A stretch of DNA of 43,890 nt from a virus: positions 1 through 43,890 of IMG/VR virus record IMGVR_UViG_3300022934_000044, one strand, 5' to 3'. The notes under the pieces are model-generated. The model was given only the letters and a program-made list of their open reading frames with translations. It was not told the origin of the DNA and searched no databases. Position 1 is the first letter of the stretch. The number at the start of each line of letters is the position of its first letter. Shown here piece after piece: positions 2,168 through 31,448 of this stretch. The position numbers and the translations under genes are program-made.

Positions 2168-2187
2168 ACTATATTTAATACAATGTT

Positions 2188-3098: not shown

Positions 3099-3099
3099 G

Positions 3100-4360: not shown

Positions 4361-4368
4361 GTTACACC

Positions 4369-4566: not shown

Positions 4567-4582
4567 ACTCCTCCTTTCCGTG

Positions 4583-8733: not shown

Positions 8734-8747
8734 CACTAGTATTTATG
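8734..8747 (-). promoter_or_regulatory. T4-type late promoter
   Basis: GCATAAATACTAG on the minus strand (ATAAATA at 8740-8746). The expected start is about 8734, only 3 nt before the ATG at 8731. Confidence 0.75.
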
Positions 8748-9438
8748 CTATTTTTGGAAATAATGCGTTAGTGCAGAATTCGTCAACATCTGCTTCATTA
8801 AGTCCTAATGACTTCATAACTCTAGGTGTATGTGGATTTTGTTGCTGGTTATGGCAGTAGTAGTTTTGAGCACCTGCTGTAATATCTACACTAGCATTGC
8901 CTGTATACTCAGGAACACTATCAAACCATACACGCAGGTTTTCTAAAGCAAGATCTACAATAGCAGTTGCTTCTTCTTCTGTGCGAACATTACCTGCGGC
9001 AACCATTCCTGGTGAAAAGATGTTCTGTGCCCATTCGGGTAGTTCACGTTGTTTACTAGGAATAAAATCTTTAACAGCATCTAAGTACCATTCTACAAGA
9101 GGATGTTCTTCACCGCCTGAACTTGCTGAAAAATCATGAAATGCACCTGTCATTTTATTCTTACCTGCAATAACATCAAAGCCGTAAATAGGACCATCAT
9201 TTGATAACACAGGAAAACAACATACGTGCATCATCCACAGTCCGTGCGAGTCTCTTGCGTCTACAACATCAATGTGTGCTCTGCGTACATGATCATTTGC
9301 CCATACTCTGTTGATCCAACCGTTCTCAGGCTGATTAAATTTGTTTAATCCTTTTTCTTCTATTTCAGTGGCTTTCTCATCAAAGATGTTTAATATTTCA
9401 TTTTGGCATTCAATTAGTTTATCCCAAATGACACTCAT
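8743..9438 (-). CDS. pcyX: PcyX-like ferredoxin-dependent bilin reductase
   Basis: A 231-residue protein of the ferredoxin-dependent bilin reductase family (PcyA/PebS/PcyX). Visible family features are RRAHIDVVDA, a strand LWMMHVCCFPV, IYGFDVIAGKNKMTGAFHDF with its two aspartates, and a C-terminus ending FCTNALFPKIA. These enzymes reduce biliverdin IXa using ferredoxin; the phage branch PcyX is known to make phycoerythrobilin, but this one's product is inferred. The ATG at 9438 overlaps the halogenase stop (ATGA); the longer TTG start only adds five codons. Heme oxygenase, which makes biliverdin, is two genes upstream in the same operon. Confidence 0.82.
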   Translation of the reverse strand: MSVIWDKLIECQNEILNIFDEKATEIEEKGLNKFNQPENGWINRVWANDHVRRAHIDVVDARDSHGLWMMHVCCFPVLSNDGPIYGFDVIAGKNKMTGAFHDFSASSGGEEHPLVEWYLDAVKDFIPSKQRELPEWAQNIFSPGMVAAGNVRTEEEATAIVDLALENLRVWFDSVPEYTGNASVDITAGAQNYYCHNQQQNPHTPRVMKSLGLNEADVDEFCTNALFPKIA

Positions 9439-10955
9439 GATCTGTTTCCCCAATCTCTATTATACATACCAGGTGTTGTCCAATCAACATCGTCTTTGTT
9501 CATCTTTTCTAAAAGTTCCATGGCTTTGTCTTTTTCTAATCCTGGTGATGCTGTTTTAATTCCTGTTGTGTTAAGCCATAGTTTCCAATTCATCTCAGCA
9601 AAGATTTCTGTATTACGGGGGAAAAACTGATAGTCATCGTCCCACATAACTGTAGGTGTATAGTTATGTTTAAAGTTTGTTGCAATCTCTGTAAGTTTAT
9701 CTGTTTCCTTAAAGTTTTTATAAACGTGTTCCCAAAACTTACCTTTACGTGGATTATTAAAATAATGTAGTGCTACAAAGTTCATAGTATCTTCATAGAC
9801 TGCTGTCATATCTTCGTTAAACTTTAATCTATCTTCTTCAGTATAACTTAGTTTTTCTAAAACTTTTAGGCCACTAGCACCAATTGTAAGTAATGCAAGT
9901 CCTGTTGATTCTAACGGTTCAATAAATCCACTAGCAAGTCCTACACTAAAACAGTTGCCTCTCCAGTTGTTTGCATTATATTCTGGCTTGAAAGGAACAT
10001 GATTAAACTGTCCTGTTCTTAGTCTGTGTTCACCCCAATGCTGTACAAAGAAATCTTCTGCTTCTTGTTTAGTGGTAAGTTCACTGTTGTAACATAGTCC
10101 ACTACCAATACGATCTTTAACAGGTGTTTTCCAAATCCAACCTAGGTCACACGCCTGTGCAGTAACGTATGGAAGTTGTACTTCATCTTCTGTTTCGTAA
10201 TCTATTTGACTTGCTACTGCGGCATTAGTAAACAGCATATGACTTCTGTCAATCCATTTACTGTCGGGCAATGCATTTGAAAGTAAACGTTTAAAGCCAG
10301 TACAGTCTACAAAAAAATCTGCTGTAACTTTTGTACCGTCATCTAATGTTACATATTCAATAACACCATCAGTAACCTTTGGAGCATCAATGTGTTTTTG
10401 AATATGTGTTAGTCTTGGATACTTCTTATTAAGATAATCAGATAAGAAGTTTGCTAGTTTAACAGCATCTAAATGATATCCTACATGAGCAGTACCACCG
10501 CAAGGTGTTGTGTTATTTGGAATCTTTTTATCTACAACAGAAACTTTATGCCAAGCAATATATTTTTCTAATTCAACCTCATTAATGCCGCCGTCACGAG
10601 CAAGGTCAATGCTATCAAGTGTTCCGTGTTCTGTATGTGTTACAGGAAAAAAGAATGGTTGCCAAATGTTAATGCCGTCGCCCTTCCAGTTTGGAAAGTA
10701 AGTCCCTGTTTTAATAGTTGCGTCACAAGCCTTTGTCCATAGTTCTCTAGGAATATTACAATCGTCTAAAAAATGATCAAACCCTAAAATAGTTGCTTCA
10801 CCTACGCCAACAATAGGAACATTAGGACTTTCAATAAGTGTGATTTGTGTTTCGGGTAAGTTTGATAATGCATAAGCGGCCGTAAGCCAACCAGCACTTC
10901 CTCCACCTACAATACAAATGGACCTAGCACGGCTACGACCTACTACTTCAGTCAT
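9435..10955 (-). CDS. Flavin-dependent (tryptophan-type) halogenase
   Basis: A 506-residue protein of the PrnA-like halogenase family. It has the FAD-binding GGGSAGW (17-23), GVGEAT (50-55), a Lys at 82 (IKTG) at the place of the catalytic Lys that forms the lysyl-haloamine, and WIWKTP (273-278) matching the WxWxIP motif except for T in place of I. Later segments GLASGFIEPLESTGL are typical. Related phage halogenases (VirX1 from a cyanophage) accept many aromatic compounds. It overlaps heme oxygenase upstream by 8 nt and the bilin reductase downstream by 4 nt, so its substrate could be a tetrapyrrole; that is inference. Confidence 0.9.
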   Translation of the reverse strand: MTEVVGRSRARSICIVGGGSAGWLTAAYALSNLPETQITLIESPNVPIVGVGEATILGFDHFLDDCNIPRELWTKACDATIKTGTYFPNWKGDGINIWQPFFFPVTHTEHGTLDSIDLARDGGINEVELEKYIAWHKVSVVDKKIPNNTTPCGGTAHVGYHLDAVKLANFLSDYLNKKYPRLTHIQKHIDAPKVTDGVIEYVTLDDGTKVTADFFVDCTGFKRLLSNALPDSKWIDRSHMLFTNAAVASQIDYETEDEVQLPYVTAQACDLGWIWKTPVKDRIGSGLCYNSELTTKQEAEDFFVQHWGEHRLRTGQFNHVPFKPEYNANNWRGNCFSVGLASGFIEPLESTGLALLTIGASGLKVLEKLSYTEEDRLKFNEDMTAVYEDTMNFVALHYFNNPRKGKFWEHVYKNFKETDKLTEIATNFKHNYTPTVMWDDDYQFFPRNTEIFAEMNWKLWLNTTGIKTASPGLEKDKAMELLEKMNKDDVDWTTPGMYNRDWGNRS

Positions 10956-11487
10956 TATCGACCTCCATCATTTCTTTGAATGTTTCTGTAGCAAAGTCAA
11001 AACATATCTTTGCTTCTTCAGCCATATCATCGTTCAACTGTTCTCTTATGGCTGTTTTCAGTTCGTCAACAGGAGCATCAAATTGATACAATCTTCCTTC
11101 TCCTGGAATTTTCTTTTTAATCATTTGTCCACCGCTTAGGTCACCCATGTGTCTAACATATACGTGAGCCATGACTTTATCTGGATCTCCCATAATTGTT
11201 CTCATATGTTCTAGATACTTTTCTGTTACTTTTAAAGTTTTAGGCATTTCTTGTTTAGGCCATAACTCTTTAAAATCATCTAGTATGCTCGGGGAACGTC
11301 TAATAGCAGGATGAGGCAATAAGCCATGTGTCATTGCTATTGCTTCTAAAATATTGTATTGAATATGTTGATTATATAAAAATGTTGCATAAAGTTCTTT
11401 GTCAATTTTACCTGACATTAAAACTTTTACAAATGCTTGGCGTTCTGCGTTCTTATGGTGTTCCCACGTTGCTTCTTTTAAGTTCAT
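10948..11487 (-). CDS. ho1: Heme oxygenase
   Basis: A 179-residue protein. The proximal His11 lies in ATWEHHKNAE with the family T-x3-H-x3-E spacing, and the distal helix is VRHMGDLSGGQMI (GDLSGG 115-120), the strongest signature. It cleaves heme to biliverdin, CO and iron using reduced ferredoxin or another electron donor. At 179 residues it is shorter than cyanobacterial enzymes (about 240), lacking mainly the C-terminal tail. The start overlaps the clpS stop (ATGA) and the halogenase start lies in its last codons. It supplies biliverdin to the bilin reductase at 8743-9438. Confidence 0.93.
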   Translation of the reverse strand: MNLKEATWEHHKNAERQAFVKVLMSGKIDKELYATFLYNQHIQYNILEAIAMTHGLLPHPAIRRSPSILDDFKELWPKQEMPKTLKVTEKYLEHMRTIMGDPDKVMAHVYVRHMGDLSGGQMIKKKIPGEGRLYQFDAPVDELKTAIREQLNDDMAEEAKICFDFATETFKEMMEVDND

Positions 11488-11792
11488 TCTTTTTCCACTT
11501 TGATCTGCAATGGGAATCCGTTTGCTCTGCTCAAAGTGGTTGCTTCTACGCTTTTTTGTTCTGCAATTTCAAATGCGTAAACGCCAACTACTGCACTTCC
11601 ATCTTCATGAATTTGTAGAGTTAGATTTTTTGCTGTGTCAACAGAATGCTTAAAAGTAGTTACTAGCACATCGATCACGAAATCCATTGGTGTTTGGTCA
11701 TCATTAATAAAAATAACTGAGTACCTTTCGGGCTCAGCAATTTTTATCTTAATCTTTTCGTCAATTTGTACATCCATATTATTACTTATCAT
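11484..11792 (-). CDS. clpS: ClpS N-end-rule adaptor
   Basis: A 102-residue protein with the ClpS core: SVIFINDDQTPMDFVIDVL (substrate-pocket N30-D31-D32), TLQIHEDGSAVVGVYAFEIAE with His62 at the second pocket position, and a final strand PLQIKVE. ClpS hands N-degron substrates to ClpA and so to ClpP. I chose ATG 11792, with AGGAG 8 nt before it; the longer open frame to 11933 just runs back into hsp20. It follows hsp20 after a hairpin (11822-11841) and overlaps heme oxygenase downstream. Confidence 0.9.
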   Translation of the reverse strand: MISNNMDVQIDEKIKIKIAEPERYSVIFINDDQTPMDFVIDVLVTTFKHSVDTAKNLTLQIHEDGSAVVGVYAFEIAEQKSVEATTLSRANGFPLQIKVEKE

Positions 11793-11820
11793 TGTATGAT
11801 CTCCTACCAGTAAATAATGA

Positions 11821-11842
11821 TAGTGGGGATTGCTCCCCACTA
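11821..11842 (-). terminator. Hairpin between hsp20 and clpS
   Basis: AGTGGGG and CCCCACT pair across a 6-nt loop. No strong T-run follows on the minus strand, so it may be a partial terminator or an mRNA-processing or stabilising element. Confidence 0.5.
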
Positions 11843-11859
11843 CCGACCTTTTAAGTGTA

Positions 11860-12309
11860 TTACTTAACTTCGATTGATCTTGCTTTTTTAGCCTCTGGAA
11901 TAATTCTTTCCAAAGCAATTCTAAGCAAGCCATCTTTTAGTTCAGCACCTTGTACTACTACATCGTCTGCAATAGTAAATGATTTAGTAAAGTGCCTTTT
12001 ACTAATACCTCTGTATTGTACACCATCCGCTTCATCGTCAGTTTTTGACTCTTGGATTGATTTAACAGTTACCACACCGTCTTCGTATGATACGTCAATA
12101 TCCTTTTTGCCAAAACCAGCAAGTGCTAATTCAATATCGTAAGTATAGTCGCCTGTTTTTACAATATTGTATGGCGGATAGTTAGTGTTAAAAGTAGGTG
12201 CATTGAAGAAGTCGTCTTCAATCATTCTTTCGAATCTATCAAAGATAGGATCGAACCCTACTGATACGGGTCTTAGTTGGTTAAAGATTGATAGTGATTT
12301 GTTTGTCAT
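11860..12309 (-). CDS. hsp20: Small heat-shock protein Hsp20/IbpA family
   Basis: A 149-residue alpha-crystallin-type chaperone. The N-terminal arm (1-45, with FDPIFDRFERMIEDDF) is followed by the crystallin beta-sandwich YDIELALAGFGKKDIDVSYE, VTVKS, YRGISKRHFTKSF and GAELKDGLLRIALERIIPE, and a C-terminal S-I-E-V that fits the IxI/V dimer-joining motif. It holds unfolded proteins for DnaK. It lies just downstream of dnaK and has its own late promoter and a 5' hairpin of the same design as dnaK's. The ribosome-binding site is AAGGAG. Confidence 0.93.
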   Translation of the reverse strand: MTNKSLSIFNQLRPVSVGFDPIFDRFERMIEDDFFNAPTFNTNYPPYNIVKTGDYTYDIELALAGFGKKDIDVSYEDGVVTVKSIQESKTDDEADGVQYRGISKRHFTKSFTIADDVVVQGAELKDGLLRIALERIIPEAKKARSIEVK

Positions 12310-12367: not shown

Positions 12368-12380
12368 ATCTTATTTATCT
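12366..12380 (-). promoter_or_regulatory. T4-type late promoter of hsp20
   Basis: GATAAATAAG (ATAAATA at 12372-12378) overlaps the dnaK stop codon. The expected start near 12366 puts the hairpin at the very 5' end of the message. Confidence 0.6.
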
Positions 12381-14263
12381 ACCTCTTCAAACTCGGCGTC
12401 TACAACGTTTTCATCTTTCTTAGATGTTGTTTCTGCTTCTTCTGAAGTGTTAGATTCTTGTTGTGCCTTGTAAACTGCTTCACCTAACTTCATTGCCACT
12501 TGTGATAGTGCTTCTGTTTTAGATTTAATATCTTCAACATTGTCACCTTTAAGTGCTTCTTGTAAGTTAGTCTTAGCATCTTCAATTGATGTTTTAATAT
12601 CTTCCGATACTTTATCACCGTGTTCTTTTAACTGTGATTCAACTGAGTGTACAAGACCGTCAGCATTGTTTCTAGCATCTACGGCTTCTCTCTTTTGTTT
12701 GTCAGCCTCTTTATTTGCTTCTGCATCTTTGACCATTTGTTCAATTTCTGCATCACTCAAACCGCCGTCTGATTTAATAGAGATTGTTTGTTCTTTGCCT
12801 GTGCCTTTATCTTTTGCTGATACGTTAACAATACCGTTTGCGTCAATATCAAATGTTACTTCAATTTGAGGCATACCTTTTGGTGCTGGTGCAATACCTT
12901 CTAGATTAAAGAGACCAAGTTCTTTATTATCTACAGCCATTTCACGCTCACCTTGTAATACCTTAATAGTAACTGCTGATTGATTATCTTCCGCAGTACT
13001 AAACACTTGTGATTGTTTAGTTGGGATTGTTGTATTCTTTTCAATTAGTTTAGTAGTAACACCGCCTAGTGTTTCAATACCCAATGAAAGCGGAGTAACG
13101 TCAAGTAGCAATACATCTTTAACATCACCACTTAATACACCTGCTTGAATTGCGGCACCTAGTGCTACAACTTCATCTGGGTTAACACCTTTGTTTGGAT
13201 CTTTACCAAAGAATGTTTTAACAGTTTCTTGTACCTTAGGCATACGTGTCATACCACCTACTAGTACAACGTCTGTAATATCACCTTTGCTTACACCTGC
13301 GTCTTTAAGAGCAGTTTCACAAGGTTTAATTGAACGTTGGATTAGTTCGTCTACAAGACTTTCAAACTTAGCACGAGTAATTTTTAAATTCAAGTGCTTA
13401 GGTCCAGAAGCATCTGCTGTAATAAATGGTAGACTGATGTCAGTTTGTGTTGTGCTTGACAATTCAATCTTTGTTTTTTCAGCCGCTTCACGTACACGTT
13501 GTAGTGCTAGTTTGTCTGTTGAAATATCTACACCAGACTCTTTCTTAAACTCGTCTACAATGTATTGTGTAAGAACAGCATCAAAGTCTTCACCACCTAA
13601 TGCTGTGTCACCGTTTGTTGAAAGTACTTCAAATACTCCGTCACCGAGGTCAAGTACTGATACGTCAAATGTACCACCACCTAAGTCATACACAACAATC
13701 TTGCCTGACTCTTTTTTATCTAGTCCGTAAGCAAGTGCCGCCGCTGTTGGTTCATTTACAATACGTAAAACTTCTAGTCCTGCAATTTTACCTGCATCTT
13801 TAGTTGCTTGACGTTGTGCATCGTTAAAGTATGCTGGTACTGTAATAACTGCTTGTGTTACAGTTGAGCCTGTATACTTTTCAGCAGTTTCTTTCATCTT
13901 GGTTAATACTTCTGCTGATACTTGTTGTGGGGAAAGTTCTTTACCTTTTGTTTCTACCCACGCATCACCGTTCTTTGCTTCTACAATTTTGTATGGAAGC
14001 GTTTTAGCATCACGTGTGATTTCTTTTGATTTAAACTTACGTCCAATTAGACGCTTTGACGCATAGATTGTGTTCTCTGCGTTAGTAACTGCTTGACGCT
14101 TTGCTGATACACCTACAAGTGTACCATCGTCAGTATAGGCTACAATACTAGGTGTAGTTCTATTACCTTCTACGTTTTCAATTACTTGGGGATCTTTGCC
14201 GCTTAGTATAGCAACACATGAATTTGTGGTACCCAAATCGATACCAATAACTTTATTAGCCAT
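12371..14263 (-). CDS. dnaK: Hsp70 chaperone DnaK
   Basis: A 630-residue, full-length DnaK. The nucleotide-binding domain starts [16 protein letters not shown], with [43 protein letters not shown] and [10 protein letters not shown]; then the linker [13 protein letters not shown], the substrate-binding beta domain, the helical lid and an acidic C-terminus ([11 protein letters not shown]). It folds and holds proteins in the host cytoplasm with DnaJ and GrpE, which are not in this window. The ATG at 14263 has AAGGAG 6 nt upstream; the longer TTG start is not needed. The full-length phage copy is striking, since DnaK is seldom seen in phages. Confidence 0.97.
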
Positions 14264-14291
14264 TTTTTTCTCCTTATTAAGCAAGTTTTAA

Positions 14292-14384: not shown

Positions 14385-14945
14385 TTACCGATTTATAAAA
14401 TAAAACTGATTGATACTATATCTACCACTTCCTATACACCTAGATACACTATGTTGTAAAAAACTTGGAAATAATATAGTTGTATTATTTTTTAATGTAG
14501 GCTTATATCCAAAGTCTGTAAACTCTAAATCTCCACCTTCAAATGCTTTTGGTTCTTTCCATAAAACTGTCACGGCAGATAATGTGCCATGATCAGCATG
14601 ATGATCATATACTGCTCCGTTTCCATAATAGTTTACCTGTGTTACATCATGGTTAGTGTAAGGTAAGTATCCTGCAAACGGATTGTCTTTTAGTTGCTCT
14701 TGCAAATAAAATAGTTTCCTATTAAAGTTCAAGACGTAACTTTTTTCTCTGTTATCTTTATAGTGTGTATCCATGTGAATAGCACACATTTTATCATTTG
14801 CTCTAGGGTCGCCAGTTTCTGCTGACGGTCTAAAGTATGCGTCTAGTGAATTAATCTCTACAAGGATTTCTTTTAGTTCCCACGGTTCGTAAAAATCGTA
14901 GATGATACTATGATGAAAAGGTTCATGTAGATTCTTAACAAGCAC
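14385..14945 (-). CDS. 2OG-Fe(II) oxygenase (prolyl-hydroxylase type)
   Basis: A 186-residue protein with YGNGAVYDHHADHG (iron-binding H-A-D), the strand LSAVTVLWKEP, the family turn FEGGDLEFTDF, the distal His in PSFLQHSVSRC and the 2-oxoglutarate-binding Arg in GSGRYSINQF. This is a complete P4H-like active site. It directly follows the GMP reductase gene (1-nt overlap). The substrate is unknown. Confidence 0.87.
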   Translation of the reverse strand: MLVKNLHEPFHHSIIYDFYEPWELKEILVEINSLDAYFRPSAETGDPRANDKMCAIHMDTHYKDNREKSYVLNFNRKLFYLQEQLKDNPFAGYLPYTNHDVTQVNYYGNGAVYDHHADHGTLSAVTVLWKEPKAFEGGDLEFTDFGYKPTLKNNTTILFPSFLQHSVSRCIGSGRYSINQFYFINR

Positions 14946-16096
14946 TAGTTACCTATTGTGTTTTTTTCGTATACAGTATTGTGTGTTTGTGTACAACGTA
15001 CAAATGTAGCACATCTACTTAGATGTTTAAGTCTTATTGCGCCAGCATAAGTACAAGCAGAACGCAACCCACCCAAGATATCTTGAACAGTAGTAGCCAC
15101 TGCTCCTCGGTAAGGCACAAGAATTTCTCTTCCTTCACTGCTTCTATACTCCTTAAGGCCTCCAAAGTGTTTGTCGTTCGCGGCCTTCGAACTCATTCCG
15201 TAGAATTGTACAAACTTTTTTTCTTCAATTTTATTTTGTATACCACCTTGATCAAAAGTAACTTCATCTGTAGTATACATTTTAGTAATTACTTCTCCAC
15301 CACCTTCATCGTGCCCGGCGAGCATTCCTCCAAGCATAACAAAATCTGCTCCTGCGGCAAAAGCCTTTGCAACATCTCCAGGCGATACGCATCCTCCATC
15401 GGCAATAATGTGTCCACCGAGACCGTGTGCGGCGTCGGCACATTCAATGACTGCGGAGAGTTGTGGGAATCCAACCCCAGTTTGAATCCTAGTAGTACAC
15501 ACGCTCCCGGGACCAATACCCACCTTAACAATATCCGCTCCACTTAAAATTAACTCCTCTGTCATTTCTCCGGTAACTACATTACCTGCAATAATTACAA
15601 TATGTGGATATAAACGTCTAAACTCTGCAACAAAGTCACGGAAACGATTTGAATATCCGTTAGCAACATCGATACAAACATAACGTAACTTATCACCTGT
15701 TTGTTCATATACTTGACGAAACTTTTCATGATCGTGATCAGTAATACCAATGCTCATTGCTACATACTGGGTACGTTCATCGTATTCACTATCAAAGTAA
15801 CATACTAGATCATTTACACTATATGTCTTTTTAAGACAGGTAAACATTTTTACTTCAGCAAGTTTGTCTGCAACTTCAAATGTTCCTACACCATCCATGT
15901 TAGCGGCCATAATAGGAATACCCCGCCAGTGTCTATGATCAGGTCGGATTTGCTCCATGCTCATATCTTGTGGCTTCCAGTTACGCCAAGTAAATCCTCT
16001 TTCAAGATCTACTTCTTTACGACTTCCTAAAGTTGAACGTTTAGGACGTAGTAATACATCTTTGTAGTCAAGTTTAATGTCTTGGTCGATTCGCAC
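14945..16096 (-). CDS. guaC: GMP reductase (IMPDH/GuaC family)
   Basis: A 383-residue TIM-barrel enzyme. It has the N-terminal DYKDVLLRPKRS, the GMP-reductase-type substrate region PIMAANMDGVGT, the catalytic loop GIGPGSVCTTR with Cys200, FVMLGGMLAGHDE, FYGMSSKAAN and EGREILVPYRG. There are no CBS domains, which favours GMP reductase over IMP dehydrogenase. It would turn GMP into IMP with NADPH, feeding purine pools during phage DNA synthesis. I chose GTG 16096 because GGAG lies 6 nt upstream; a TTG at 16126 is the longer choice. It overlaps the upstream oxygenase. Confidence 0.88.
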   Translation of the reverse strand: MRIDQDIKLDYKDVLLRPKRSTLGSRKEVDLERGFTWRNWKPQDMSMEQIRPDHRHWRGIPIMAANMDGVGTFEVADKLAEVKMFTCLKKTYSVNDLVCYFDSEYDERTQYVAMSIGITDHDHEKFRQVYEQTGDKLRYVCIDVANGYSNRFRDFVAEFRRLYPHIVIIAGNVVTGEMTEELILSGADIVKVGIGPGSVCTTRIQTGVGFPQLSAVIECADAAHGLGGHIIADGGCVSPGDVAKAFAAGADFVMLGGMLAGHDEGGGEVITKMYTTDEVTFDQGGIQNKIEEKKFVQFYGMSSKAANDKHFGGLKEYRSSEGREILVPYRGAVATTVQDILGGLRSACTYAGAIRLKHLSRCATFVRCTQTHNTVYEKNTIGN

Positions 16097-16694
16097 TTTT
16101 AACTCCGTAGTTAAACGATACTGCAATACGTTCGTTGTTGCTTTTGTTTTGTGTTACTTCATGTTTTGCCCAGCCAGGAAATATTGCTACCATGCCAGGT
16201 TTAGGCGGATATGTTGCCATTGTGCTTGTGATAGTATTATACTGACTTAGATTATCAGGGATATAATACTGTGCATCATCAGGACGATAAAATCTTAAAT
16301 CACCCATATTCTCATCTGGTACATCAATGTAGAATACTCCACTTAGTAATGCATCTTGATGATTGTGTAACGTGTGATATGCTCCCGGTCCATTAATGTT
16401 AATCCAAAAGTTTTGAAATTCAACTTCTGGTAATCCGCAGACTTTAGTTACATACGCCATAGCCTCATCTAATTCTGTTAAAAATTTTCTAAGTACTGGA
16501 ACGTACTGTGGATCTACTAGATCAACATTTTCAATACTACGACTGTGCCACCCACCTTGATTGCTGTTACCATGCAAGTCTGGTTCTTTAGTTCTCCAGT
16601 CATGTGCAATATGTTTCATAGCATTTCTGTCTACCTTTTCTAAATAGCCGGCAAACACAAATTGCGGAAACCATAAGTCTGCTTTAAATTCCAT
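16074..16694 (-). CDS. 2OG-Fe(II) oxygenase, TIGR02466-like
   Basis: A 206-residue protein. The core FWININGPGAYHTLHNHQDA, LLSGVFYIDVP, the late PGMVAIFPGWAKHEVTQN and the final NERIAVSFNYG match the phage-rich family of putative 2OG-Fe(II) oxygenases typified by TIGR02466, with the His pair in HTLHNH, the distal His in WAKHEV and Arg in NERIAV. It sits between bS21 copy 2 and guaC. Confidence 0.85.
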   Translation of the reverse strand: MEFKADLWFPQFVFAGYLEKVDRNAMKHIAHDWRTKEPDLHGNSNQGGWHSRSIENVDLVDPQYVPVLRKFLTELDEAMAYVTKVCGLPEVEFQNFWININGPGAYHTLHNHQDALLSGVFYIDVPDENMGDLRFYRPDDAQYYIPDNLSQYNTITSTMATYPPKPGMVAIFPGWAKHEVTQNKSNNERIAVSFNYGVKSANRPRH

Positions 16695-17405: not shown

Positions 17406-19106
17406 TTACTGTTGTGAAGTTGGGTCTTGTTCTTCCGGCTGTGTTTTCTTGCGGATTTGTTTGTTTTCTACTTTGGTTATGTACGAGGTTGCGTTCGCTC
17501 TTTTTTTTTGAAACTCTGGTGTTAACTCTTCTGCGTAAAAAATTCTATTCTTAGTATCTGGAATATCACTTTCTTCTGTTTCTTTTTCTGCTTCTTTGTT
17601 TGCGGCGTCAACCCATTCATTCCATTTGTCTAAGTCTGATGTCATATTAACTTCAGGTTCAAGTTCTTTTTGTTCTTCTTCAAAGTTAGGTGGTTCGTTA
17701 ACTGCTATCTTTTCAGCACGAATTTTTTCATACTCGTCAAAGTTTACTTCTTTATTGTCATCATCTTGTACTTCAACTTGTTCCATTCGCTGATCATGTT
17801 CAGTTGTGTTGGAAGTATCATCCTCTGGTACCACAGTTCCGTCATCTGCATCTGCATCATAACTAGGGTCTTGTAAATCTCTATCATCGTCATTATCCTT
17901 GTTTGGACCTTCTGGGTCTGACTTTGGGGGCAAACTACCTCCTTTGTCCTCACGGTACCAATTGAATGTGTACTGTGATGCAATTAGAAGCAATACTGCT
18001 AATGGGTCAAACACAAAGATAATAATAATGATTACCCAACGTACTGCCGCTTCTAATAATGTTTGATCTGCTTGTTCACCGTAGATAAATTCTGCAATAT
18101 ACTTAATAGGTCCTACTTCTGCTTCTAGTTTACGATATTCGCCTTCAATTTTATATTTCTGTTCTACTAGTGTATCTATTTCTGTATTAGCATTTTTAAT
18201 TCTTAATGTTTGTGTATCTATTTCTGCGTCAATGCTATCTGCTTTATCTGTATTACCTAACTGCTTACGTAATCTGTCAATAAGAGCATTTGATTGTTTA
18301 ACTTGATCTTCAGCAGTCTTACGTAGACGTTTAATTTCTTCAGCGGCCGCTTTAGCCTGTGGATTATTTGTTGCTTCTTCAATCTTTTTAATTAGTGCTA
18401 AACGTTCTTTCTGTTTTTCGTCTTGCCAGTCGCCAATTTTATCTGCTGTCTTTTTACCAAAGATGCCATCTGCACTAGCACCAATCATTTGTTGTGCTTT
18501 TTTAGTTTCGCCGTTGTCAATATAACCTTGTAGTGTTTCAATTTCGGCATCTATTTTAGCAAGTTCACTACGCCATAATGATGCTTGGCTATCAATTATA
18601 GCCTGTTGTTCATCGATGGCAGGTTGAATTCTTTTATAAGCATTGTCGATACGTTCTTGTTCTTTGTCAATTTGTGATTGTATGTTAGCGTCAGAACCTG
18701 TACCGCTTGATTCTAGTTTTTTAATTTGATTTTCTGCACGAACAATAATATCTTCGTTTCGTTTAATTTCGTTCTCAATACGTTCTACTTGTGCAATACT
18801 TTCTGTACCTGCACTAGTTTGTTCAATATGTGCTTTAGATAGGAACCCAAAAATACCCATACTTGTAATAAACATTAATACGAGTACTGCTATAGATAGA
18901 TACGTCTTAAGCCACCATGCGGCTCTTTCCCAGTTTCGGTGTAACCATACTGCTGTAACTAGTTTACCTACTTCTAAAGATACACCCATTACAATAATGG
19001 GAATTGCGGCCGCGGCAAATATAGCCACTAAGCCTGCGACACTATAATATATTGCTACTGCTGAAATTGTCAGAGCAGAAAAGAATGTTAAAAAACCTAA
19101 TACCAT
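17406..19106 (-). CDS. Membrane protein with large coiled-coil domain and PG-binding-like motif
   Basis: A 566-residue protein from ATG 19106 (AAGGA upstream). Two or three membrane helices lie in the first 100 residues, including LVAIFAAAAIPIIVMGVSLE and LKTYLSIAVLVLMFITSMG. Residues about 100-355 form a long charged coiled coil, within which SADGIFGKKTADKIGDWQ resembles the DGxFGxxT half of a peptidoglycan-binding repeat. A further helix (RWVIIIIIFVFDPLAVLLLI) is followed by a 170-residue acidic tail. Similar proteins occur in T4-like cyanophages. A role at the inner membrane (superinfection exclusion or lysis timing) is conceivable but not shown. A late promoter lies at 19124-19138. Confidence 0.7.
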   Translation of the reverse strand: MVLGFLTFFSALTISAVAIYYSVAGLVAIFAAAAIPIIVMGVSLEVGKLVTAVWLHRNWERAAWWLKTYLSIAVLVLMFITSMGIFGFLSKAHIEQTSAGTESIAQVERIENEIKRNEDIIVRAENQIKKLESSGTGSDANIQSQIDKEQERIDNAYKRIQPAIDEQQAIIDSQASLWRSELAKIDAEIETLQGYIDNGETKKAQQMIGASADGIFGKKTADKIGDWQDEKQKERLALIKKIEEATNNPQAKAAAEEIKRLRKTAEDQVKQSNALIDRLRKQLGNTDKADSIDAEIDTQTLRIKNANTEIDTLVEQKYKIEGEYRKLEAEVGPIKYIAEFIYGEQADQTLLEAAVRWVIIIIIFVFDPLAVLLLIASQYTFNWYREDKGGSLPPKSDPEGPNKDNDDDRDLQDPSYDADADDGTVVPEDDTSNTTEHDQRMEQVEVQDDDNKEVNFDEYEKIRAEKIAVNEPPNFEEEQKELEPEVNMTSDLDKWNEWVDAANKEAEKETEESDIPDTKNRIFYAEELTPEFQKKRANATSYITKVENKQIRKKTQPEEQDPTSQQ

Positions 19107-19123
19107 GCTGTTCCTTTTTATAT

Positions 19124-19138
19124 ACATTATATTTATCG
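19124..19138 (-). promoter_or_regulatory. T4-type late promoter
   Basis: GATAAATATAATG (ATAAATA at 19130-19136), 18 nt before the expected ribosome-binding site of the membrane coiled-coil gene. Confidence 0.6.
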
Positions 19139-19167: not shown

Positions 19168-19608
19168 TTATCGAATAAAACGCCAACCCTTATGTCCTGA
19201 CTCTTTACAAGCCGTTTCTTTAAAGTTTCTAGTTTTGCCTTTATATAACAATGTACTTGCTAGGGTACGACAATACCCGCTACCTTGCGGATAAGTGGAT
19301 AGAACTAACACTTTGCCGTTAGTTCCTGTTTGATTATTGTACCATGATGACTCTTCGCCATTCTCTAGTGTGTTAAGAGCAAAAAAGATAGATTGTTCTT
19401 GTTTTAATCTATCTTCTTGTGGAAGTCTATACCAATGCCACTTACCTAGATTAACTAGGATACCTACATACCCGTTGGACGGTTGATATGTTGACTCTAC
19501 ACTAGATAGTGTGCTATCACTTCTATGATATGTATCTTGTGATGTTGTTGAACACGCCCCTAAAAAACTAGTAAGGACTATTAACAATATACCATCGCGA
19601 AGTTTCAT
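19168..19608 (-). CDS. Lipoprotein with 17-kDa surface-antigen-like C-terminus
   Basis: A 146-residue protein with a lipoprotein signal (MKLRDGILLIVLTSFLGAC; lipobox LGAC, Cys19). The C-terminal half (TNGKVLVLSTYPQGSGYCRT, YKGKTRNFKETACKESG, GWRFI) follows the pattern of the Rickettsia 17-kDa antigen/glycine-zipper surface protein family: a C-R pair, then T-A-C, then G-W. It should be anchored in the outer membrane. It overlaps the upstream lipoprotein gene by 41 nt. Confidence 0.78.
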   Translation of the reverse strand: MKLRDGILLIVLTSFLGACSTTSQDTYHRSDSTLSSVESTYQPSNGYVGILVNLGKWHWYRLPQEDRLKQEQSIFFALNTLENGEESSWYNNQTGTNGKVLVLSTYPQGSGYCRTLASTLLYKGKTRNFKETACKESGHKGWRFIR

Positions 19609-19906
19609 AACTGTTACCCTTTACTAGACAAGCATAGCCTTTACGTTCGACCATTTGTCCATTAATGTTAACTTCATACCAATGTTCTCTACAACTTTCT
19701 GCTAGACCCATTTTAGGCGGTAGCATCTTTTTAACTACATTGTCACTACATTGGACAATAGTATTACTAGATACTGTCTTACCATCCTTTATTTGGATTG
19801 TTTCGTCTGTTTGGCAGTATTGTGGTATATGACTTTTTGTTGCCACTTGACCTGTACTGCTACACGCCGACATCAGAATTACAGATAGTAGAAGAACATA
19901 CTTCAT
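19568..19906 (-). CDS. Small lipoprotein
   Basis: A 112-residue protein with the signal MKYVLLLSVILMSAC (lipobox MSAC, Cys15). The mature part has four more cysteines (near 31, 53, 72 and 93), enough for two disulfides in the periplasm. No further domain is recognised. It is the middle one of three consecutive lipoprotein genes. Confidence 0.72.
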   Translation of the reverse strand: MKYVLLLSVILMSACSSTGQVATKSHIPQYCQTDETIQIKDGKTVSSNTIVQCSDNVVKKMLPPKMGLAESCREHWYEVNINGQMVERKGYACLVKGNSYETSRWYIVNSPY

Positions 19907-19907
19907 A

Positions 19908-20399
19908 TTACTGAGCCTGCTTTGATTCTAGAATCAGTCTATCAAATACCTCTAAAGGCATTTTAATACGAACGTATGTATGAACCCTATTAGTACTTGC
20001 TAACTGATAAGAGTACTTCTTAACTTCAAGATGTTCTCTAATAGTTGTGTCCTTAACAAGGTGTTCAACTCTTGTTGAATCGTTTCGTGTGTCGTTTTTA
20101 ATGTCAACAACTGTAGATGAATTTACAGTTCCGTTGATTCTTTCTGCAAAGCCTTTTACTGCGAATGCATAAGCCTGTGATTCACTTGCTTGTTCGTATA
20201 GACTTTCGCCCATACCACACGCATAAGCATAATCAGTTTTCCAGAATAAAAATCCTTCTGCACCAATTTGCTCACAGTCAGCATACCAATTTGGATTTGC
20301 CTTTGTTTCTCTAACTTCGAGTGTCTTCATCGATGTACAAGCACCTAACATAGATGCAACTACACCAATTAGTAACACATTCTTTAATGTGCCTTTCAT
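19908..20399 (-). CDS. LPP20-like lipoprotein
   Basis: A 163-residue protein with the signal MKGTLKNVLLIGVVASMLGAC (lipobox LGAC, Cys21). The mature protein starts with an ANPNWY motif and continues ACGMGESLYEQASESQAYAF, AVKGFAERINGTV and a strand-rich end, the layout of the LPP20/FlgT-N-like lipoprotein family. It has a strong ribosome-binding site (AAGGAGG) and its own early promoter (20442-20470), so the three lipoproteins are probably made early. Confidence 0.75.
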   Translation of the reverse strand: MKGTLKNVLLIGVVASMLGACTSMKTLEVRETKANPNWYADCEQIGAEGFLFWKTDYAYACGMGESLYEQASESQAYAFAVKGFAERINGTVNSSTVVDIKNDTRNDSTRVEHLVKDTTIREHLEVKKYSYQLASTNRVHTYVRIKMPLEVFDRLILESKQAQ

Positions 20400-20441
20400 A
20401 AATTTAAGCCTCCTTAGCCTATTCGTTTAATTTACTATTAC

Positions 20442-20470
20442 AGTATATACAAATATAAATCAAAAGTCAA
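20442..20470 (-). promoter_or_regulatory. Sigma-70-type early promoter of the lipoprotein operon
   Basis: TTGACT, 17 nt, TATACT, with the upstream flank AAATTTCCAC shared with other early promoters here. Confidence 0.85.
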
Positions 20471-20486
20471 GTGGAAATTTGCCAAT

Positions 20487-20945
20487 TTAATTTCGACGCA
20501 TTTGTGCGATTTCTGTGGCTTGTTTCTTACCATTACCGCTATCGTCTTCAAAAATTGGAACCATATTACTTTTGTGCATTGTAGCAATGCCCAAAAGTTT
20601 TCTTTCACCTGTGTACTGCATTGGTTCCTTTTTAGTACAGGGTGAAAAACTTGCTGACGTTTGTAAACTTGGAATGTGTTTTGTTTCACGGGTAACAGTT
20701 GGGCCACTATAGTGCCACGGTGTATTGATAACAGTTTCTGTTTTGGTTTTTGGTTTGTATTCTCCGTGAATGTAATCAATGTACTCGTCCAAAGTCATCA
20801 TTAGTTTATGAAGTCCTTGTTTCTTGTATTCTTTATTTCGAATACGTAAATCTTCTTTCCAACGATCTAACTTTGCCTGTGTAATTTTACGCTTCTTCTT
20901 AGTTGTGTTAAGAGTAGTTAAGCCTCGAGCCAAATGCATTGTCAT
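20487..20945 (-). CDS. Conserved T4-like phage protein
   Basis: A 152-residue protein whose C-terminus (KLLGIATMHKSNMVPIFEDD, later ATEIAQMRR) is a familiar signature of a protein conserved across marine T4-like phages. The N-terminus is basic and helical (KKKRKITQAKLDRWKEDLR, DEYIDYIHG). The ribosome-binding site is AAAGGTG. It has its own early promoter at 20977-21005. The function is unknown. Confidence 0.8.
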   Translation of the reverse strand: MTMHLARGLTTLNTTKKKRKITQAKLDRWKEDLRIRNKEYKKQGLHKLMMTLDEYIDYIHGEYKPKTKTETVINTPWHYSGPTVTRETKHIPSLQTSASFSPCTKKEPMQYTGERKLLGIATMHKSNMVPIFEDDSGNGKKQATEIAQMRRN

Positions 20946-20976
20946 ATTGTCACCTTTATGTTACATTAACACACTT

Positions 20977-21005
20977 ATTGTAGTATATAGATGACAAAAA
21001 GTCAA
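20977..21005 (-). promoter_or_regulatory. Sigma-70-type early promoter
   Basis: TTGACT, 17 nt, TACAAT, upstream of the conserved gene at 20487-20945. Confidence 0.85.
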
Positions 21006-21018
21006 GTGAAATTTAGCC

Positions 21019-21043
21019 AAAAAAATAGGGCCCGAAGGCCCCA
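21019..21043 (-). terminator. Rho-independent terminator after the porin gene
   Basis: GGGCC-TTCG-GGCCC hairpin followed by TATTTTTTT on the minus strand, 16 nt past the porin stop codon. Confidence 0.88.
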
Positions 21044-21058
21044 TCTTTTATTTTAGTA

Positions 21059-22108
21059 TTAGAATTTGTATTTGACGCTTGCCAATACTTGCTGTGTTTC
21101 AGCGTGTTCGGCACCAGTAAATACGGAACGTCCACCTTTATCGTGGTAGTAAAGTCCCATTTCCAACCCGTCCTGTTTGTCAGAACGTTTTGAAGGATCG
21201 TAGTTTGTTGCTAGGTTATATACTACACCGTAGTAGTTACCATCATATCCTAAGTCATCATTTTCAGTTCTGTGTGCTGTAACATAAACGTTTTTGTTTA
21301 CGTTATACATTACACCGTAATCTAAACGATCGTCTTTTGTATATGTGCCTGTATTCTTATCGTCCCACAGTTCAACACCCCAAACTAATGGAACGTTCCA
21401 TCTGTATAAACTACCACCAATTGAATAACCTTCTTGGTCACCTTTGCCTGAATCTTCAGGAGAAGTAATACGCATATAAGATACATCTGCATAACCCATT
21501 AAACTAATTGTACCTGTTGCATAACCTACGTTTCCGTCGTTATCCCAACCAAGTGAAACACCCCAAGGCTGTTCTTTCTTTAGTCTATATGAATCAAAAT
21601 CAAATTCGTTGTCATATTCCCAACCACCAAATGTTAACACAGTTTTTTCTCTGTGATCAATTCTGTAGTTTGTTTCTGTATAGATTAGTGGAACAGAAAT
21701 TTTAGGAGTCTTTGCGAATCCCATTCTTTGTGCGTCAGTTTCACCAATGTACCATCTTGCTACATCATTACCAAAACCTAATTGCTTTTCTTGAACAGTA
21801 TTGTTTAATGTTGTATCTAATGAATAGTGAGTGTCGTACTTCATTGATGCCCCAATCCAATCCACTGAAAGTGTTTCAGGAATGTTTGTTGAAATACCTA
21901 GTTGCAATTCTGCACGTGAGTCCCAACCTGAATCATAGGTTTTGTCATCATAGTAACCTTCTACTTCACCATTTACAAAAAAGCCTTGCGGCAAGTTTGG
22001 AATATTATTTTCTAAAGCCTCTACTCTTTCTTCAAGACTTTTGTCATTAGCCAATGCACCTGTTGCAAATCCAAACAGGATGGCTAACACTAATGTTAGT
22101 TGTTTCAT
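21059..22108 (-). CDS. Outer-membrane porin-like beta-barrel protein
   Basis: A 349-residue protein with a signal peptide (about 20 residues, MKQLTLVLAILFGFATGALA), a short coiled-coil start (LEERVEALENNI) and then a long run of amphipathic strands rich in Tyr, Trp, Gly and Asp. It ends VKYKF; the terminal Phe is the recognition signal for outer-membrane barrel assembly. It should form a pore in the host outer membrane. A phage gene of this kind could alter nutrient uptake or hide a phage receptor. It ends at a strong terminator and lies next to three lipoprotein genes. Confidence 0.82.
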   Translation of the reverse strand: MKQLTLVLAILFGFATGALANDKSLEERVEALENNIPNLPQGFFVNGEVEGYYDDKTYDSGWDSRAELQLGISTNIPETLSVDWIGASMKYDTHYSLDTTLNNTVQEKQLGFGNDVARWYIGETDAQRMGFAKTPKISVPLIYTETNYRIDHREKTVLTFGGWEYDNEFDFDSYRLKKEQPWGVSLGWDNDGNVGYATGTISLMGYADVSYMRITSPEDSGKGDQEGYSIGGSLYRWNVPLVWGVELWDDKNTGTYTKDDRLDYGVMYNVNKNVYVTAHRTENDDLGYDGNYYGVVYNLATNYDPSKRSDKQDGLEMGLYYHDKGGRSVFTGAEHAETQQVLASVKYKF

Positions 22109-22135
22109 TTTATTTGTTTTTCCTTATCTTTATTC

Positions 22136-22162
22136 GAATAAAAAAGACACCTAGAGTGTCTT
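22136..22162 (-). terminator. Rho-independent terminator
   Basis: AGACAC-TCTAG-GTGTCT hairpin followed by a T-run on the minus strand. It ends transcripts of the small-gene cluster 22208-23805 before the porin gene. Confidence 0.82.
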
Positions 22163-22163
22163 C

Positions 22164-22179
22164 TGCTTTTATTTATGCA
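22164..22179 (-). promoter_or_regulatory. Possible T4-type late promoter upstream of the porin
   Basis: GCATAAATAAAAG (ATAAATA at 22170-22176). The terminator at 22136-22162 lies between it and the porin, so either that hairpin is part of the leader or this site is spurious. Confidence 0.4.
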
Positions 22180-22207
22180 CTCAAAGAGTGCAGTTGTTTA
22201 TTTCTGG

Positions 22208-23618: not shown

Positions 23619-23805
23619 CGTCTTTTTTCTTTAGGCTCCAATTACCATTGTCTAATTCTTCCCAGATAAGTGTATCGCCAATGTCCCAACCTACTTGGGC
23701 TAATGCTTCTGGGGGGAGTTCTAAATATAATTCTTTTGTCTTGCCATCTTCTTGAACTTGAACAGTCCAAGAATTTTCACCGGTCTGTATTGGATTTCGT
23801 ATCAT
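23611..23805 (-). CDS. AbrB/MazE-like small protein
   Basis: A 64-residue protein from ATG 23805 (AAAGG 9 nt upstream; a GTG at 23814 is the longer alternative). The C-terminal part LYLELPPEALAQVGWDIGDT followed by a short strand and GNWSLKK has the pattern of a swapped-hairpin AbrB/MazE DNA-binding domain (LP.E.L...GW..GD.L). No toxin partner is adjacent. It is the first gene after the tmRNA and may share its transcript. Confidence 0.6.
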   Translation of the reverse strand: MIRNPIQTGENSWTVQVQEDGKTKELYLELPPEALAQVGWDIGDTLIWEELDNGNWSLKKKDDV

Positions 23806-23832
23806 TGCTGTCACCTTTGATAATTAAAAAGT

Positions 23833-23860
23833 GCAACTTTTCTGTTGCTAGGGAAGTTGC
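23833..23860 (-). terminator. Hairpin at the end of the tmRNA coding piece
   Basis: GCAACTT and AAGTTGC pair across a 14-nt loop, followed by ACTTTTTAATT on the minus strand. It could be a weak terminator or a tmRNA pseudoknot element. Confidence 0.5.
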
Positions 23861-23873
23861 CACCCCCGAGTGA

Positions 23874-23966
23874 TTATGCCGCTAGGGCAAAATCCTCAGA
23901 AAGACGAACGTCTTTTTGCTCACCGAAGTTTACAAAAGAAACGTTGTCCAATGCTTTATCGTTTGC
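23874..23966 (-). other. tmRNA proteolysis-tag reading frame
   Basis: Thirty codons from the resume codon GCA to TAA. The tag begins ANDKALDNVSF, the usual A-N-D start, and ends EDFALAA, the Clp-directed degron. The GCA is set by the match AGAT-GCAAACGATAAA to the E. coli AGTC-GCAAACGACGAA. Confidence 0.85.
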
Positions 23967-24152
23967 ATCTATAACGTTTGCTTGATTTACGGTCATCGCC
24001 TACCGGTAACTCCACGTTCTCTAGTACATCAGTCGATCCCGATCACCCCCTCAAAGCACACTCTGTGAATGTGTTTTAAGTGAATGGTGGAGGTGGGGGG
24101 AATTGAACCCCCGTCCTGCCTGTGTTCGATTGGCTTCATCGTTACAATACTT

Positions 24153-24181
24153 ATTTAACTACATTTTAACGCACTTGTCAA
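24153..24181 (-). promoter_or_regulatory. Sigma-70-type promoter of the tmRNA
   Basis: TTGACA, 17 nt, TTAAAT, giving an expected start near 24146, about 25 nt before the recognisable acceptor piece. Confidence 0.75.
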
Positions 24182-29819: not shown

Positions 29820-31448
29820 TTACGACTTATATTTTACTTTAAAAAGGATTGAACCAGTATCACTAGTTGTAGTGTTAATCATTTCGATAACGATTGTATC
29901 AGTATTACCATCGCCATCTTCATCCGAAAGAACAGATCTAAACTGTAGATTATTTCGAACTGTATCATCACCTAAGAAAGTAAAGTCGTCGCTTGTAGTT
30001 GTTGTTCCGTCTGCTCTGTTAACCAAAATGTCCAAGACACCTTCACGTAGTGCATTCACGTGTGTTGATTTATAAATGTATTCAACTTCAATATTTTTAG
30101 ATACTTCACCGGATGCTCTTAAAATTCTTACATAACTGTTCTGTTGTGTAATAGGAATTCTATAAGAAAATCCGTTTTCAAACACCCCTGGACCTTCAAT
30201 GTCTGGAGTATATTTGTAACCTGAAATTAATGTTTGGTTAAATGACAAGTCACTTGTTCTATCAAAGAAGTCATTGTTACTGCTGTTCGAAAGAGCAGTA
30301 CCTTCTGTAAACTTGATAGTTGAATGAATAGCGTTTGCATTAGCGCCACCTAAGTTACCAACATTTACAAAACTATTGTTTGAACTAGTATTGTAATTAC
30401 CAATATTAACTAGGATACCGTGTTGGTCAATATCTCTAAATTTACTATTTGTTATAAGGTTACGTTGTGGACCATGTAGTTGTCCTTGTGATCCAATAAT
30501 TGTATTCAAGCCAAGTACAACACCGTGACCTAATGTAACAAAGTCGACATTTGAAAATGTATTGTCTACAACATCAAAGTCGGAAAACACACCATAAGCA
30601 AAACCTTCGATTAAAACATTATTAATATAGTTGTCGTTAGTGCTTACACTTGTCGATAAACTGTTTAACCTAATGCCAATTTGGTCTGCGCCAAGAGCAT
30701 TGTTTGCTTCCCAGATACCTTTAATTGCTAAATCTTCAAAATGACTGCTACGACAACTTTGCAATTTTAATCCTGTGTTAGTCGTTTGTTGTAGTAGTGT
30801 TAATCCTTTAATTGTAATCTTTTTTGCTTGATTATTAAATGTACTTGTTGCATCAAGAGCATAACTGTTTGGACTACTTGCTTCATTAACTGTTTCCATG
30901 ATAGGAGCATTTGCTGTTTGTACAATAACAGTCTTTTCACTACCTTCACCAATAATGTTTGCATTAGGTGGAATTCTTAATGGAGAAGAAAGGTTATATG
31001 TTCCTGCTGGAATCACTAACGCAATTCTACTAGGTACACTACCTTTACTTGCTGGGTTTAAATATAATTCATCAATTGCTCTTTGAAGAAATACTGTTTG
31101 ATCTGACCCGTCGCCTGTTGCGCCAAAACTTTTAACACTAACTGACTCGTCTAATCTTTCTTGTAAGGAACGTGTAACAGGATTTGTAATCGTTGGTCCT
31201 GTTTGGATAGTATCAATTTCTGCTTTATATTCATAAGTGTCTGCAAAGTTAAAAAGATTGTCATGTTCAGTAATAACTTTAGTATTACCAACTGCTGGCG
31301 ATCCTTCTGAAACAGAGCCATTACCAATGTAAAGTTCTCTTGTGTCTACTGCCCAACCAAACTCGCCACCTGCTAATTGCGGTACTCCCGAGCCTTGGTT
31401 CTTTTGTCCTCTACGGACTTGAATACGTGATATTTGTACTATTGCCAC
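29820..31448 (-). CDS. Tail-fibre/tailspike-like protein with right-handed beta-helix
   Basis: A 542-residue protein. The N-terminus RIQVRRGQKNQGSGVPQLAG followed by GEFGWAVDTRELYIGNG is the short attachment module seen at the start of many phage fibre proteins. Residues from about 100 (VKSFGATGDGSDQTVFLQRA) begin a pectate-lyase-type beta-helix, with repeated N-x-F/N-N turns, and a final beta-domain ends LFKVKYKS. It probably binds or cuts host surface glycans. The start is GTG 31448, with AAGGAG 9 nt upstream and a late promoter just before. Confidence 0.82.
   Translation of the reverse strand: MAIVQISRIQVRRGQKNQGSGVPQLAGGEFGWAVDTRELYIGNGSVSEGSPAVGNTKVITEHDNLFNFADTYEYKAEIDTIQTGPTITNPVTRSLQERLDESVSVKSFGATGDGSDQTVFLQRAIDELYLNPASKGSVPSRIALVIPAGTYNLSSPLRIPPNANIIGEGSEKTVIVQTANAPIMETVNEASSPNSYALDATSTFNNQAKKITIKGLTLLQQTTNTGLKLQSCRSSHFEDLAIKGIWEANNALGADQIGIRLNSLSTSVSTNDNYINNVLIEGFAYGVFSDFDVVDNTFSNVDFVTLGHGVVLGLNTIIGSQGQLHGPQRNLITNSKFRDIDQHGILVNIGNYNTSSNNSFVNVGNLGGANANAIHSTIKFTEGTALSNSSNNDFFDRTSDLSFNQTLISGYKYTPDIEGPGVFENGFSYRIPITQQNSYVRILRASGEVSKNIEVEYIYKSTHVNALREGVLDILVNRADGTTTTSDDFTFLGDDTVRNNLQFRSVLSDEDGDGNTDTIVIEMINTTTSDTGSILFKVKYKS

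Follow-up and report, generated by a model that had tools for sequence, protein, structure and literature searches.

Analysis of window G000, by which we mean the whole 43,890-base IMG/VR virus fragment studied here, revealed it to encode a porin of 349 amino acids (aa) and, downstream of it on the same strand, a unit of three lipoprotein genes, which we have designated lip1, lip2 and lip3, and a fourth gene, designated TMcc. By its sequence the window is assigned to a T4-like virus of aquatic bacteria, because the nearest isolates of its NrdB were the Pelagibacter phages Mosig and HTVC008M and the cyanomyoviruses (~64%). The original prediction for this DNA had described a porin and three lipoproteins as an envelope module at 20399–21059. 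Both components were real: a 349-aa open reading frame (ORF) at 21059–22108 (minus strand) with a signal sequence and a C-terminal Phe, and three consecutive genes with lipoboxes between 19168 and 20399. The interval 20399–21059 itself contained none of these genes and held only the lip1 promoter, orf152 and the hairpin and T-run that follow the porin. The features concerned are listed below.

22109–22207, minus strand: leader of the porin gene, with two hairpins (22176–22192 and 22144–22162) and a TTCGAATAA element; a similar leader is found in L009, L010, L011 and L012
21059–22108, minus strand: phage porin, 349 aa, with signal peptide, 16-strand barrel model and C-terminal Phe; 36 viral relatives; purifying selection
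21020–21058, minus strand: terminator-like hairpin (GGGCC-TTCG-GGCCC) and T-run, directly after the porin stop codon
20977–21005, minus strand: sigma-70-like promoter of orf152 (TTGACT-17-TACAAT), conserved in the upstreams of relatives
20487–20945, minus strand: orf152, a conserved small protein (PHROG 27048) in which no signal peptide was seen
20442–20470, minus strand: sigma-70-like promoter of the lipoprotein unit (TTGACT-17-TATACT), conserved in the upstreams of relatives
19908–20399, minus strand: lip1, LPP20-like outer-membrane lipoprotein, 163 aa; lipobox LGA/C (slash at the cleavage site); LPP20 profile in 9 of 18 members
19568–19906, minus strand: lip2, small lipoprotein, 112 aa; lipobox MSA/C
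19168–19608, minus strand: lip3, 17-kDa-antigen-like lipoprotein, 146 aa; lipobox LGA/C
17406–19127, minus strand: TMcc, 573 aa, fourth gene of the lipoprotein unit; hydrophobic segments around a coiled coil
10948–11487, minus strand: heme oxygenase (PF01126, E 1.2e-22)
9435–10955, minus strand: tryptophan halogenase, between the heme oxygenase and the bilin reductase (PF04820, E 1.7e-89)
8743–9453, minus strand: ferredoxin-dependent bilin reductase, PcyA/PcyX-like (PF05996, E 2.9e-17; PRK02816, E 8e-23, under the cut-off)

The porin and its structural model

The porin began with a hydrophobic signal sequence, the cleavage site of which was judged by eye, and ended in KYKF, the final residue (F349) being nearly invariant among relatives. 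An AlphaFold2 model, built on an alignment (A3) of 24 sequences hand-picked from porin loci, contained 16 strands with a mean predicted local distance difference test score (pLDDT) of 74.4 and a predicted template modelling score (pTM) of 0.69. A Foldseek search of the PDB with this model returned a Rhodobacter-type porin, OmpU and OmpF (E 1e-8 to 4e-10), and VIA-align gave Z-scores of 21.1 for Vibrio OmpT, 20.3 for OmpU and ~20 for OmpC, OmpF and DcaP, the structural alignments extending over 250–275 residues. The barrel therefore survived structural modelling, failure of which the original prediction had named as refuting it, with 16 strands and Z-scores of ~20–21 to known porins. The prediction is supported in so far as a phage-encoded porin and outer-membrane lipoproteins would change the host envelope.

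In common with the general trimeric porins (OmpF/OmpC, Vibrio OmpU/OmpT and the Rhodobacter type), the phage protein had a 16-strand barrel, a signal peptide, a C-terminal Phe and a long loop at the L3 position. It differed from them in its sequence, which shared 8–14% identity in the structural alignments, and in its distribution, which is phage-only so far. Profile scans against Pfam and NCBIfam assigned the window porin to no family, and searches against an annotated phage collection, the PDB sequences, Pfam and PHROGs found no match; the OMP_b-brl profile was detected in one of 24 porin family members (E 7.9e-5). Matches of the model in BFVD were mostly poor, two being labelled OmpC and one OprO/P, in uncultured phages. 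Porins encoded by phages thus have precedents: lambdoid phages are known to encode some that take the place of those of the host, and proteins labelled OmpC occur in uncultured phages.

Strands 5 and 6 were joined by a long loop (residues 125–153), which we take to occupy the L3 position of porins. The block containing it (residues 122–157) had 22 invariant columns out of 36, compared with 52 of 277 at the other positions between residues 37 and 349 (Fisher p 3e-7). Residues 138–151 of the loop had a pLDDT below 50, and the loop is only tentatively placed inside the pore. Among 15 pairs of porin genes tested, one was saturated, and in all 14 for which a whole-gene synonymous rate (dS) was obtained the nonsynonymous rate (dN) was well below it, which indicates that the porin is under purifying selection.

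Distribution of the porin and its linkage to tetrapyrrole genes

A search at the protein level across 2.9 million viral contigs identified 36 porin loci, which were assigned by identity and neighbourhood to group A (16 loci) and group B (20 loci, a count that includes L037, where only 61 porin residues are present at the contig end); a group C was defined in the same way from later loci. Group A porins were 73–100% identical by best segment and, where the contig reaches upstream, lay ~3 to 6 kb after NrdA-NrdB-Grx; L006, L008 and L014 had other neighbours. The window porin likewise stands alone after NrdAB-Grx, with the heme oxygenase and bilin reductase genes ~10 kb away. In L007, L009, L012, L013, L015 and L035, genes for transfer RNA (tRNA) lay shortly before the porin.

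In group B the porin was located directly behind the bilin reductase in 19 of the 19 loci L016–L034, at a spacing of 1 nt (15 loci), 0 nt (three) or -4 nt (one). The heme oxygenase was upstream wherever the contig reaches, and gp13 was downstream in 18 of the 19, L022 ending first. Ahead of its porin operon, L033 additionally carried three repeated pairs of genes, of families f66 and f85 (92–4688). A second scan, made with a divergent porin member, returned 16 loci, four of group C and the rest of group B. The bilin reductase again preceded the porin in all seven of L083–L089, three of which repeat earlier contigs. This adjacency persisted between L018 and L085, for which synonymous sites were saturated. 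Group C showed a different arrangement, 5-aminolevulinate (ALA) synthase, DUF454 and porin, in five of five loci (L077–L081) and also in L173, while L082 starts inside DUF454. The synthase scored above the curated cut-off of TIGR01821 (E 2e-166) and DUF454 above that of PF04304.

The original prediction had called the lipoproteins host-type and proposed a comparison with SAR11 genes to find the source of these proteins. A GTDB scan for the porin, which used two peptide patterns only, found just two loci, which belong to a single Rhodobacteraceae bin (G029), and no relative was present in any of 384 other genomes of the class of this bin; a host-type origin of the porin is not supported. The bin contigs that carry it look like T4-like phage contigs, with NrdA, NrdB, thymidylate-synthase-like and reductase-like genes.

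The window encodes both the heme oxygenase and the ferredoxin-dependent bilin reductase, as does a 117,515-base record of the window virus, in which no match to ALA synthase or valaS was found, although that record may be incomplete. Neither the heme oxygenase nor the bilin reductase was found in an 81.6-kb group C record. The order heme oxygenase, halogenase, bilin reductase was seen in many of the loci L091–L124, and the window halogenase overlaps the ends of both neighbouring genes. The isolate Mosig has heme oxygenase, bilin reductase and gp13 in this order with no porin between them, and from this comparison either the porin would have been inserted between the reductase and gp13 in group B, or Mosig would have lost it. 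Identities between the window and group B were 55–62% for the porin and 55–58% for the reductase, which is compatible with a shared history. In the window, the porin would have come apart from the genes for heme oxygenase and bilin reductase, and it lies alone upstream of the lipoprotein unit.

Most probably the porin serves as a channel that the virus places in the outer membrane while infecting its host. Since it is found repeatedly in close linkage with tetrapyrrole genes, the leading guess for its substrate is heme, a bilin, iron or a precursor. The reading that we favour, at somewhat under an even chance, is that the porin is an optional outer-membrane channel serving the heme/bilin programme of the phage and that lip1-lip2-lip3-TMcc is a separate envelope unit. 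The porin would be exported by Sec, and its 16-strand barrel, as modelled, would assemble in the host outer membrane during infection, probably as a trimer. It would then pass a small solute of the heme-to-bilin programme, with heme, iron or precursors entering or bilin leaving. The barrel model, the conserved loop at the L3 position, the purifying selection and the tight linkage to bilin reductase (group B) and ALA synthase-DUF454 (group C) are what we observed; from these we infer the insertion into the membrane, the direction of transport and the substrate.

Several observations weigh against a tetrapyrrole role. In none of the 16 group A loci (of 36 in all), the window included, does a tetrapyrrole gene lie beside the porin, and the confidence of the model is low exactly in the L3 region (residues 138–151 below 50). 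The bilin reductase was present in 22 of 37 porin records and in 19 of 34 porin-less control records found via lip1; the contigs counted are fragments, and 10 further porin loci fall outside the porin-record count. As the controls carry the reductase about as often, co-occurrence at the genome level was rejected as evidence. Additionally, none of 77 bilin-reductase loci (L094–L170) had a porin in the sequence spanned, the group B loci being outside that top-80 list. Since the reductase is common with or without the porin and these 77 loci lack it, the tetrapyrrole pathway does not need the porin. All group B loci may descend from a single insertion, and those of group C from a second, so that the independent tetrapyrrole linkages number only two, with the window copy standing alone. 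Many auxiliary genes sit before gp13, which makes coincidence likelier.

Coincidence is the basis of the strongest alternative for the porin, that it is a general nutrient channel, non-specific or for another substrate, which variable islands carry as cargo; the genes beside it in groups B and C would then reflect only the location of a hotspot. The tRNA genes upstream of six porin loci are the usual mark of an insertion hotspot, the three settings of the porin are unrelated and its fold is that of general porins. Against this, two separate settings both adjoin a tetrapyrrole gene, the adjacency to the reductase has been kept across saturated synonymous divergence and the loop at the L3 position is unusually invariant; we regard this alternative as possible but somewhat doubtful. 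That the porin takes the place of a host receptor or keeps other phages from superinfecting the cell, along the lines of the original prediction, would accord with the lambdoid porins and with the position of the group B gene between tail-fibre-like genes and gp13. No specific support for superinfection exclusion was found: the most invariant part of the protein is the loop at the L3 position and not the outer loops, which were themselves under purifying selection in the pairs tested, and we consider this explanation improbable. A virion component, as the embedding of the group B copy among structural genes could suggest, is very hard to reconcile with the signal peptide and C-terminal Phe, the unrelated locations in the other groups and the lack of a match in the annotated phage collection.

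The lipoprotein unit

The lipobox was kept in 31 of 31 distinct lip1 proteins, 24 of 24 lip2 proteins and 20 of 27 lip3 proteins, the other seven lip3 proteins being without one. The labels given earlier to two of these proteins had weak support. The window lip1 protein had no Pfam match, and the LPP20 profile (PF02169) was found weakly in nine of 18 family members (best E 0.0014). The lip1 model (pLDDT 63) gave Z-scores of 5.0 to Tip-alpha, 4.9 to HP1454 and 4.2 to dodecin, a level shared with unrelated folds, and Foldseek returned nothing below 1e-3; LPP20, Tip-alpha and dodecin presumably have related folds. No match to lip1 was found among annotated phages. The 17-kDa-antigen profile (17kDa_Anti_2, PF16998) matched the window lip3 at E 0.01, which is under the cut-off, and was found weakly in four of 17 members (best E 2.9e-5).

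TMcc had hydrophobic segments at approximately residues 6–62, 69–99 and 354–388, on either side of a coiled coil that contains a DGIFGKKT motif; this topology is from hydropathy only. The motif resembles PG_binding_1, a domain that Pfam found in only one of 16 members (E 0.17). A weak Tetraspanin match in 15 of 16 members probably reflects shared membrane topology only. Relatives of TMcc were present in 13 annotated phage records, and in Mosig a glucosaminidase gene directly precedes the homologue.

The original prediction had given each group of genes a clear promoter, ribosome-binding site or terminator. Distinct upstreams were scored as having a sigma-70-like promoter when at least 10 of 12 consensus bases matched. 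By this threshold a promoter was present upstream of lip1 (26 of 28), orf152 (21 of 30) and NrdB (12 of 15); none was found upstream of lip2, lip3, TMcc, the IMP dehydrogenase gene described below, gp13 or the porin (0 of 23 for the porin, where some upstream windows begin too early because the first start codon was taken as the ORF start). The T4-late motif TATAAATA was present upstream of gp13 in 11 of 11 cases and absent from the lip1 (0 of 28) and porin (0 of 23) upstreams. Between 17000 and 24500 there were 27 promoter-like matches, compared with 24.8 ± 5.7 in shuffled sequence and hence no excess, and the lip1 and orf152 promoters are convincing only through their conservation. Terminator-like sites in the same interval numbered 11, compared with 3.9 ± 2.1 in shuffles, and the 70 nt after the porin stop codon had a predicted folding energy of -21.3 kcal/mol. 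By analogy with the NrdB promoter, that of the lip1 unit is suggested to be of the early type.

A hairpin terminator follows the porin itself, and separate promoters precede orf152 and lip1, so the sequence indicates that the porin and the lipoproteins are not one transcription unit. Of 34 loci found via lip1 (L042–L075), almost every one extending far enough had lip2, lip3 and TMcc after lip1 (in L058 lip2 and lip3 were not found), and no porin was found in any of the 34, some of which are on contigs that end early. The porin, in turn, occupied other settings in 20 group B and six group C loci, the presence of the lipoproteins elsewhere having been asked of only part of the records. The neighbourhoods of the loci and the promoters thus led us to reject a single operon or co-inherited module, and the idea of one planned envelope module is not supported; lip1, lip2, lip3 and TMcc form one unit behind a conserved sigma-70-like promoter. 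Downstream of this unit a homologue of inosine monophosphate (IMP) dehydrogenase/guanosine monophosphate (GMP) reductase was encoded (14945–16126, minus strand), as it was in most relatives reaching that far.

All 34 porin-lacking lip1 loci contained a gene for a cell-wall hydrolase of the Hydrolase_2 family (PF07486), located between orf152 and lip1 where the layout is shown. It was found at this place in none of the 13 lip1 loci of the window clade, as defined by clustering and including several copies of one contig, and PF07486 was not found in 12 of 13 porin records searched, the 117-kb record among them. Because the unit is linked to peptidoglycan hydrolases in relatives, its most likely role is in envelope remodelling or the timing of lysis; its products are predicted to form a complex between the inner membrane, peptidoglycan and outer membrane. 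The promoter is of a type that suggests early expression, and the genes beside the unit in relatives point to cell-wall turnover or lysis. From sequence, lysis timing and superinfection exclusion are indistinguishable for this unit.

The first of two alternatives for this unit is a spanin-like lysis complex acting with a nearby peptidoglycan hydrolase. As in the two-component spanins (Rz/Rz1), there are outer-membrane lipoproteins, as the lipoboxes indicate, an inner-membrane protein with a periplasmic coiled coil, here with a peptidoglycan-binding-like motif, and a wall hydrolase near by, namely Hydrolase_2 in the 34 loci and the glucosaminidase in Mosig. Weak matches to Rz-like spanins were also obtained and may be signal-peptide artefacts. 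The unit differs from Rz/Rz1 in having three lipoproteins, several membrane segments and a promoter of the sigma-70 and not the late type. By hydropathy, TMcc has hydrophobic segments on both sides of its coiled coil, unlike the single-pass, N-in arrangement of a standard i-spanin, and the window clade is without the Hydrolase_2 hydrolase. This version is accordingly possible, though rather unlikely. The second, an early complex for superinfection exclusion or envelope stabilisation, accords with the conserved promoter, early by analogy with that of NrdB, and with a predicted span from inner to outer membrane. The linkage to peptidoglycan hydrolases points instead to lysis or wall turnover, and we give this version a similarly low probability.

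A curli-related (CsgF/CsgG) cluster has been described in pelagimyophages (PMC7029224; Zaragoza-Solas et al. 2020) and resembles the present unit in placing conserved, outer-membrane-directed genes in a variable region. It differs in that Pfam scans found no curli match in lip1-lip2-lip3-TMcc, and the words 'porin' and 'lipoprotein' do not occur in the text of PMC7029224.

Other genes of the window were a transfer-messenger RNA (tmRNA)-like gene (23783–24179, minus strand) with an unusually long predicted tag peptide, the relatives L009, L015 and L036 having the tmRNA tag ANENFALAA; a proteostasis set of ClpP, ClpS, Hsp20 and Hsp70 homologues (5690–6256, 11484–11933, 11860–12309 and 12371–14284, minus strand); a class 3 lipase on the opposite strand (42388–43170, plus strand) adjoining tRNA-Gly and tRNA-Trp genes; and a pectate-lyase-like protein (29820–31448, minus strand) with an Mtd_N-like start, a possible receptor-binding protein.

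Implications for the phage heme/bilin pathway

A phage cassette of hemO, pcyA/X and valaS has been described (PMC11480375; Wegner et al. 2024), and the purpose of phage hemO and of the bilin reductase was called still enigmatic there. The same enzyme set is present in the aquatic T4-like phages studied here, groups B and C holding the heme oxygenase-bilin reductase and the ALA synthase genes, respectively. The difference is the porin as a downstream partner: the words 'porin' and 'outer membrane' do not occur in the main text of PMC11480375, and a literature search, outside which most subscription journals lay, found no paper on a phage porin linked to hemO or pcyX; it listed the term 'viral porin' once for PMC8115048 and 'phage porin' once for PMC12197685. 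We tentatively propose, as an idea that is on balance unlikely, that the transport step missing from the heme/bilin pathway of these phages is supplied by this phage-specific family of porins, as a pore that would move heme, bilin or a precursor through the envelope of a non-photosynthetic host.

If this is true, hemO and the bilin reductase would serve trade with the outside, by the gain of iron or heme or the release of bilin, and not light harvesting. A porin translated right behind the heme-bilin enzymes is a concrete, testable hint of outer-membrane transport in this pathway. The findings add a phage-specific porin family and a conserved lipoprotein/coiled-coil unit to the envelope-changing genes of T4-like viruses of aquatic bacteria.

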